From positions 62,001-126,000 of the forward strand of contig CANGEW010000002.1 of the NCBI GenBank assembly GCA_947452965.1: a stretch of 64,000 nt of DNA, given 5' to 3'. This document shows positions 62,832 through 64,000 of the stretch, one piece after another (positions within the stretch are counted from its first letter, which is position 1; each line of letters begins with the position of its first letter). The notes below the pieces were generated by a model, which saw only the letters and a program-made list of their open reading frames with translations, was not told the DNA's origin and made no database searches. The position numbers and the translations under genes were made by a program. The stretch is from Chitinophagaceae bacterium. Lineage in GTDB: Bacteria > Bacteroidota > Bacteroidia > Chitinophagales > Chitinophagaceae.

Positions 62832-62876
62832 ACATAAGGTAAAAATTGTATGTATATTAGCCAAAAATATACTTCG

Positions 62877-64000
62877 ATGAAAAAGCACTTATCATTTTTA
62901 TTTTTTGTGTTTTTACTTTTAACTTTTGAATATACTTCAGCCCAAAACGTTGGTATTGGAACTAACACCCCAGAAGCTTCTGCCCAACTGGATGTAACGT
63001 CAACGAGTAGGGGCTTATTACCTCCACGCATGACCTATGCACAGCGTAATGCGATTGTAAGTCCTGCTGCAGGATTGATTATTTATTGTACTGATTGTGC
63101 CTACGGAGAAATGCAATATTATAATGGAACCAATTGGATTAATATGGCAGTAGGTTTAGGCTCTGTACCATTTATAGCTCCAACCGTTACTACAGCTTCT
63201 GTAAGTTCTATTACAAATACAACAGCTATTTGCGGAGGCACCGTAACCGCTGATGGTGGAGCCACTGTAACCACAAGGGGCGTGGTATGGAGTACAAGCC
63301 CATCACCAACAATAGCATTGAACACTAAAACAACTGATGGTACAGGAACAGGCAGTTATACCAGCAATATAACAGGGTTAACTCCAAATACGACTTATTA
63401 CGTAAGGGCTTACGCCACCAATATTGCAGGTACATCATATGGAATTGAGCAAAATTTTACAACCACCACATCAGGAGGCACTACAAATTTATCGAGTGTA
63501 ACAATATGCAATCAAACGTGGACCACACAGAATTTGAGCGTTAGCAGATATAGAAATGGGGATGTGATACCCCAGGTTACTGACGCTACACAATGGCAAA
63601 ATTTGACTACAGGCGCTTGGTGTTGGTATAATAATGATAGCGCCACTTATGCTGCTACATATGGAAGATTGTATAACTGGTATGCTGTGAACGACCCCAG
63701 AGGTTTAGCTCCAATAGGGTGGCACGTACCTACAGATGCAGAATGGAACAAACTGGTAAAATGTATTGACCCTGCAGCAGATACAACATTAAGTGGTTCC
63801 CAAAGTGCCACAGCAGGCGGTGCTATGAAGGAAGCCGGAACAAGTCATTGGCTAAGCCCTAATACCGGAGCTACAAATAGCAGTGGCTTTGCAGGCCTTC
63901 CGGGTGGCTACCGTAACTACGATGGGACGTTCGACGACGTTGGCGACTACGGAGTCTGGTGGAGTTCTACAGAGTACGGTACAGCATTCGCCTGGTCCCG
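62877..64000 (+). CDS. FISUMP-domain (C-type-lectin-fold) surface protein, 3' end cut by window edge
   Basis: An open frame of 374 codons plus two bases from ATG 62877, with no stop before the edge. A signal peptide ends near YTSAQ. The next part (VGIGTNTPEASAQLDVTS) is the Bacteroidota 'NVGIGTxxPxxxLDV' surface-protein start. A fibronectin-type segment follows (APTVTTASVSSITNTTAICGG...TYYVRAYATNIAGTSYG, about 102-195). Then comes a Fib_succ_major (FISUMP) domain with GRLYNWYAVND, GWHVPTDAEWNKL, SSGFAGLPGGYR and WWSSTEYG. FISUMP domains take a C-type-lectin-like fold. The last 32 codons differ from the rest in base use; see the next entry. Confidence 0.85.
   Translation, partial: MKKHLSFLFFVFLLLTFEYTSAQNVGIGTNTPEASAQLDVTSTSRGLLPPRMTYAQRNAIVSPAAGLIIYCTDCAYGEMQYYNGTNWINMAVGLGSVPFIAPTVTTASVSSITNTTAICGGTVTADGGATVTTRGVVWSTSPSPTIALNTKTTDGTGTGSYTSNITGLTPNTTYYVRAYATNIAGTSYGIEQNFTTTTSGGTTNLSSVTICNQTWTTQNLSVSRYRNGDVIPQVTDATQWQNLTTGAWCWYNNDSATYAATYGRLYNWYAVNDPRGLAPIGWHVPTDAEWNKLVKCIDPAADTTLSGSQSATAGGAMKEAGTSHWLSPNTGATNSSGFAGLPGGYRNYDGTFDDVGDYGVWWSSTEYGTAFAWS
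63903..64000 (+). other. Candidate variable region of a diversity-generating retroelement
   Basis: In the last 32 complete codons 15 end in C (TAC four times, GAC three times, TTC twice, also AAC, GTC, GCC, TCC). The AT-rich genes around prefer TAT, GAT and TTT. This NNC pattern at the 3' end of a lectin-fold gene is what adenine-specific mutagenesis of AAC codons produces. The region continues beyond the window. No reverse transcriptase or template copy is in the window. Confidence 0.5.

Follow-up and report, generated by a model that had tools for sequence, protein, structure and literature searches.

The 3′ end of a FISUMP-domain gene in a Chitinophagaceae genome as a probable target of a non-adjacent diversity-generating retroelement

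The 3′ end of the FISUMP-domain gene described here, which lies on contig C2 of the assembly, is very probably the variable repeat (VR) of a diversity-generating retroelement (DGR) served by a non-adjacent cassette. Three lines of evidence, all drawn from sequence comparison, carry this reading: the variation among VRs is restricted to presumed template adenines on a common framework, the same framework recurs in the template repeats (TRs) of other organisms, and this regularity contrasts with the diverged upstream halves of the genes. In the mechanism we propose, the DGR reverse transcriptase (RT) would copy a TR rich in AAC and AAT codons, replacing adenines at random, and the mutated cDNA would then take the place of the 3′ ends of FISUMP genes dispersed over the genome, at least the three of contigs C2, C1, and C20. 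RT and TR would act in trans from a cassette outside the assembly, and the varied residues may form the ligand-binding face of a secreted protein.

The gene and its codon usage

The window, i.e., the whole 64,000-nucleotide stretch analysed (G000:C2:62001-126000), comes from an assembly of 2.34 Mb in 93 contigs that is 87% complete. The features under discussion, in window coordinates, are the following.

62850..64000, + strand: FISUMP-domain gene, an open reading frame cut by the window end; 412 aa in its longest reading
62877..62945, + strand: hydrophobic N-terminus of the gene product; translation MKKHLSFLFFVFLLLTFEYTSAQ
63498..63992, + strand: in-window part of the FISUMP (Fib_succ_major) domain; residues 217-381 of the window reading
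63909..64000, + strand: putative DGR VR, made of NNC/NNT codons on a fixed G/T/C framework; its core continues to ~64052 (L018:4053)

The start codon is likely the ATG at 62877, and the hydrophobic translation that follows it is likely a secretion signal peptide. When the rest of the contig is read, the stop codon of the gene ends 88 bases beyond the window (C2:126088); the VR core stops 11 codons short of it, and the VR takes up about the last 50 codons of the gene. The domain scores above the curated cut-offs of both Pfam PF09603 (138.3 bits, cut-off 33.9) and NCBIfam TIGR02145 (74.8 bits, cut-off 41.65).

A C-type-lectin fold of the FISUMP domain is plausible for this family and weakly suggested by modelling. 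The structure model built from 21 aligned FISUMP domains has a mean pLDDT of 81.8, with the lowest values around residues 121-150, i.e., where the VR begins and immediately ahead of it. Its best fold match in the PDB is the C-terminal domain of Legionella Lcl (E 0.045). All 17 matches have E above 0.001, those to the DGR variable protein TaqVP (E 3.0) and C-type lectins (E of 3 and more) being weaker than the first, and a search of solved structures by sequence gave one match (E 0.1).

The first-pass annotation of the window had claimed a burst of NNC codons at the end of this gene, and the counts bear it out. Thus, 15 of the 32 codons from 63903 to 63998, in the frame that begins at 63903, are NNC. 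Among 16,824 windows of 32 codons, drawn from 34 non-overlapping open frames of at least 200 codons taken longest first and irrespective of gene status, this value is the maximum, reached four times and only inside the C2 FISUMP gene; the background NNC fraction in the long open frames of the window is 0.143. The codons listed by the annotation (TAC, GAC, TTC, GTC, GCC, TCC, and AAC) are all present, but its list omits GGC: the burst consists of four TAC, three GAC, two GGC, two TTC, and one each of AAC, GTC, GCC, and TCC. In the upstream part of the gene, NNC accounts for 59 of 351 codons in the same reading, compared with 28 of 61 in the whole gene end, its portion beyond the window included (Fisher p=2e-6). 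The annotation was also right that tyrosine and aspartate upstream are mostly TAT and GAT (16 TAT vs. 3 TAC; 8 GAT vs. 3 GAC).

Variation at template adenines

A DNA search of the genome with the C2 gene returned 16 matches to parts of it. The FISUMP domain is matched at six further places: C1 (88% identity), the beginning of C20 (75%), C18, C59, C7, and C4. Codon alignment of the C2, C1, and C20 ends reveals a common fixed framework, with TGG-TGG-AGT-TCT-ACA-GAG in its middle, on which the genes differ mainly in the first two bases of codons ending in C or T; C18 and C7 lack this framework. Within the core of the three VRs, aligned by codon, 43 of 63 TR-adenine columns vary vs. 4 of 78 other columns (p=3.7e-16). 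Three of the four exceptional columns would themselves count as adenine sites were A present at them in the genome's own TR, and 1 of 78 then remains. In the gene end as a whole, 11 non-A columns vary, six of them 3′ of the core in the last codons, as expected for sequence outside the rewritten stretch. Where the TR has Asn codons, 73 of the 78 corresponding codons of the three VRs finish in C or T, and 13 different residues are specified there.

The second line of evidence comes from templates found elsewhere. The expected TR, with AAC at the variable codons, was used as a pattern for searching genome records and viral contigs. Eight matching stretches were obtained, in records of Bacteroidales, other Bacteroidetes, and Fibrimonadaceae, and all eight read as FISUMP TRs; neither of two TR patterns had a match in the viral contigs. 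An order-wide pattern search added TRs in 2 of 396 genomes, G473 and G341. The comparison TRs come from other genera, and the adenines of the genome's own template are therefore inferred in the tests that follow. Against the TR of a family member (L173), mismatches of the C2 end fall on 37 of 67 adenines vs. 15 of 107 other sites (p=1.1e-8); the corresponding values are 29/67 vs. 16/107 for C1 (p=4e-5) and 41/67 vs. 17/107 for C20 (p=9e-10). The L118 TR gives much the same result, with 37/66 vs. 16/108 for C2 (p=1e-8), 30/66 vs. 19/108 for C1 (p=8e-5), and 41/66 vs. 18/108 for C20 (p=1e-9). The ordinary FISUMP paralogues of the same genome show no adenine bias against either template: p is 0.37-0.49 for C18, C7, and C59 and 0.23 for C4 with L173, and 0.4-0.6 and 0.11, respectively, with L118. 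Two ordinary FISUMP genes of the genus, used as controls, have a weak bias against the L118 TR (G024, p=0.03; G045, p=0.01).

The third line of evidence is the contrast between the gene ends and the regions upstream. In the upstream domain, third codon positions differ at 67 of 139 (C2-C20), 68 of 137 (C1-C20), and 34 of 138 (C2-C1) sites, whereas in the VR end the counts for non-A third positions are 6, 7, and 3 of 55, respectively (C2 vs. C20, p=4e-7). When one member of the pair is an ordinary paralogue, C18 or C7, 30-39 of these 55 positions differ.

These data bear on two explanations that dispense with a retroelement. Ordinary gene conversion among FISUMP paralogues has in its favour the six further FISUMP matches in the genome and the likeness of C1 and C2 upstream as well. 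Conversion, however, copies all sites, whereas pairs of the three VRs differ at 32-35 of 66 TR-adenine sites and at 4-10 of 108 others; this inequality contradicts gene conversion, which we therefore consider very improbable. The alternative invokes positive selection acting on the binding loops, or a sequence imported from an organism richer in GC. Loops of lectin-like domains can evolve fast, and third-position C could reflect foreign codon usage. Yet the effect persists at codon positions 1 and 2 alone, where it is tied to template adenines (41 of 60 TR-adenine columns vary vs. 2 of 34 others, p=1.2e-9). Moreover, silent VR positions are nearly frozen while upstream ones have diverged, and in other genomes TRs with AAC at the variable codons adjoin DGR-type RTs. 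We thus give selection or import very little credence. The start of a variable region in this gene, as first-pass annotation had proposed, is upheld, since both the differences among the VRs of the genome and the mismatches to foreign TRs fall on template adenines; paralogue conversion, named there as the alternative, does not fit the pattern of sites.

The sequence following the VR is less telling. Three hairpins follow the C2 VR, with a fold z of -5.2, a value that none of 200 shuffles reached. In the flanks of C1 and C20, a 5-bp hairpin sits at the stop codon, but they fold no better than shuffles (z -1.6 and -0.2), and neither does the flank of the ordinary paralogue C18. According to PMC3240598, the Bordetella phage DGR requires a hairpin after its VR; in related phage DGRs, stems of 7-10 bp carry 4-nt GRNA loops. 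The loops of the C2 flank are 3 nt or GTAA, not of this type, and for this reason the hairpins are no more than suggestive of a DGR target site; they could be terminators. One of them contains CGCGAAGCGG, which is present in 10 of 165 loci: five overlapping copies of the C2 flank; three of the L092 DGR locus, also overlapping, where it lies behind the variable gene; L114, 45 bases beyond the VR gene; and L146, nearly 0.9 kb from the VR and hence outside the VR flank. Separately, an element similar to GCAAAGTGCGGTAGGGTTGATTCATTGA comes after the stop codon of VR genes of different genomes (G011, G012, G030, G122, and G130), and it may belong to the DGR target site.

The search for the cassette

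Many DGR targets adjoin their cassette, and the first-pass annotation had placed TR, accessory protein, and RT just right of position 64000. The 14 kb right of the gene hold instead what look, by their translations, like housekeeping genes (gyrB, mfd, an oxidoreductase, glycyl-tRNA synthetase, and ribonucleotide reductase), with no RT, Avd-like gene, or TR seen among them, and no TR-like copy turned up when the 3.2 kb surrounding the gene were searched for repeats. A cassette directly right of 64000 is refuted for this assembly, and we regard it as next to impossible. Neither the near-copy nor the RT that the annotation had expected downstream was found in the next 14 kb or, as a DGR-type enzyme, in the assembled genome. 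DGRs act on remote targets too, and this absence therefore speaks against a neighbouring cassette and not against a DGR target.

Searches of the 2.34-Mb, 87%-complete assembly found no TR, no Avd-like protein (best E 0.17), and no DGR-type RT; of the searches for the RT, one had no positive control of its own, and the PF00078 search did give a match in five of five genomes with an apparently intact FISUMP DGR RT. The sole RVT_1 match of the genome, at L019:7859-8899 on the minus strand (G000:C13), is an RT of 346 aa with motifs QGAPTSP and RYADD. It was rejected as a DGR RT, having QGAPTSP in place of a motif of the GN.TSQ type, and looks, by its motifs, retron-like rather than DGR-like.

In our opinion, the cassette is most likely merely missing from the assembly, recent loss being possible; this is favoured because the VR framework has hardly drifted and because the assembly is only 87% complete. 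A competing reading, which differs only in this last inferred step, holds that the cassette has been lost from the lineage and that the three VRs are now frozen, drifting remnants. We consider it the less probable of the two and still worth serious attention: it agrees with the lack of RT, TR, and Avd in the assembly and with the state of related loci described below. Against it stands the finding that 1 of 78 non-A core columns varies unexplained, compared with 25-50% of upstream third positions, and little time can therefore have passed since the last copying; the incompleteness of the assembly likewise weakens it.

The RT is not always intact at other FISUMP TR loci. Among the eight loci of the pattern search, a VR-type gene was seen in the examined stretch of six, L113 and L119 being the exceptions, and an Avd-like gene at five (L112, L114, L115, L116, and L118). 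The RT appears to be intact in L113, where residues 18-359 of 401 align, and in L114, L115, L116, and L119. It is shortened internally in L112 and cut off in L117, where another contig of the genome carries an RVT_1 fragment; at L118 only N-terminal RT pieces remain, and that genome has no RVT_1 match. As regards the order-wide finds, G473, a member of the same family listed as 100% complete, has its TR near a contig end; ~34 residues resembling an RT come after the TR, and RVT_1 found no match in this genome. G341 combines a VR-type gene, an Avd-like gene, and a TR, with no RT in the 9 kb read; its sole RVT_1 match, on another contig, contains a stop. In all, the RT is broken or missing at 5 of 10 FISUMP TR loci (L112, L117, L118, L173, and L174), which accords with lineage-level loss. 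RT loss thus seems to be frequent while TR and VR persist.

The genus presents a similar picture. An RVT_1 match occurs in 20 of its 93 genomes, and DGR-type RTs were recognised in three (G030, G035, and G014), by motif where the locus fitted the search expression and otherwise by similarity to a FISUMP DGR RT. With the L118 TR as template, adenine bias at p<1e-3 is shown by 24 of 58 distinct FISUMP ends, i.e., only those in retrieved loci that match one search expression (the genome's own C4 does not fit it and was tested apart). One of the 24 is viral and the other 23 belong to 17 genomes of the genus, a genome count that is approximate, since the weakest ends (e.g., those of G041, G056, and G019) also have many non-A mismatches. 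A DGR-type RT is present in two of these 17 genomes, G030 and G035, and 15 have none, seven of the 15 being listed at 98-100% completeness, which likewise accords with loss from the lineage; at p<1e-4, 12 genus genomes have VR-type ends, two of them with a DGR-type RT. This pattern supports recurrent loss or remote supply of the cassette.

With the strict TR pattern, the 93 genus genomes gave three matches, of which one is a true TR with a different framework (L092); the other two were rejected as TRs, being FISUMP gene ends. In G030, which has a DGR-type RT, no TR was recognised upstream of that RT, and a TR-like match on another contig was rejected as a further VR gene. G035 also carries a complete DGR with another variable gene, a compact locus (L092:796-3726, G035:C181) composed of variable gene, Avd-like gene, TR at 2267-2403, and RT.

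Several other loci came to light in this survey. L093 (G014:C141) has a divergent DGR-like RT (LPIGNLMSQ), three near-repeats of 70-82 bp beside it, and a ParB-like gene on the same contig. Two genus genomes have RTs of another type (L094:5488-6678 and L095:5322-6266; motifs LPLG.GFCVLLAN and RYEDD), which adjoin genes reading like RecD-, RecC-, and RecB-type subunits and are possibly part of a defence locus. In five cases (start of G000:C20, start of G112:C196, end of G043:C16, end of G122:C267, and the end of the L173 contig), no more than ~850 bases separate a VR or TR from the end of its contig, as if assemblies might tend to break near VRs and TRs.

Mobile elements were also considered. 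The VR framework was found in three viral contigs of IMG/VR (L150, L151, and L152; 39-42 kb) with FISUMP-like genes, recognised by motif. Their VR-like ends stand on the TGGTGGAGTTCTACAGAG framework, with adenine bias at p<1e-3 in the L151 end and not in those of L150; these three records, possibly fragments, gave no RVT_1 match. FISUMP homologues in five phage and three plasmid records are all below 40% identity.

Known systems and biological meaning

The literature searched yielded no paper in which "diversity-generating retroelement" and "FISUMP" occur together. The domain is nevertheless familiar under its other name: three papers on such retroelements mention Fib_succ_major and name it as a DGR target, and it is given for 9 putative variable proteins of a human microbiome set (PMC4159848) and for DGR targets of Bacteroides uniformis phages (PMC8143477). 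The C2 gene is thus a known kind of DGR target. The gut-microbiome and B. uniformis phage DGRs with Fib_succ_major or DUF1566 targets have targets of the same domain family with the VR at the 3′ end; they differ in that the C2 VR genes lie away from any cassette, none having been assembled. Closer relatives are L114 (Prolixibacteraceae GH41) and L115 (Marinilabiliaceae ANBcel2), each of which unites VR-type gene, Avd-like gene, TR, and RT in one locus. Their TR framework is that of the C2 VR, but they are compact cassettes, whereas C2 is a remote target.

With respect to arrangement, the nearest parallels are found in other groups. In Treponema denticola, a member of another phylum, targets lie far from the core, and some isolates have VR genes with neither RT nor TR, as stated in PMC4891356, where TRs had been taken from further isolates of that species; the isolates lacking RT and TR offer a precedent for VRs left behind by a lost cassette. 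For C2, the TRs come from other genera, and the comparison is backed by that of three VRs within the genome. The cyanobacterial DGR targets described in PMC7517822, of C-type-lectin type, are dispersed like C2, C1, and C20, but they are tied to a DGR of the same genome, unlike the case presented here.

A DGR target can thus be recognised statistically, from sister VRs together with foreign TRs, in cases where the assembly lacks the retroelement. This matters for surveys, one of which, a large study that tied VRs to neighbouring RTs, itself states that remote targets were missed (PMC8144416). A more speculative proposal, to which we attach a rather low probability, is that the genus keeps DGR-diversified FISUMP surface proteins without a resident cassette: VR target sites would stand ready in chromosomal genes, and a travelling TR-RT unit (plasmid, phage, or short-lived insertion) would diversify several of these genes in trans and then be lost, so that diversification would come in bursts. 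If the genus does keep diversified targets after loss of the RT, its members would form a natural series for timing the gain and loss of diversification.
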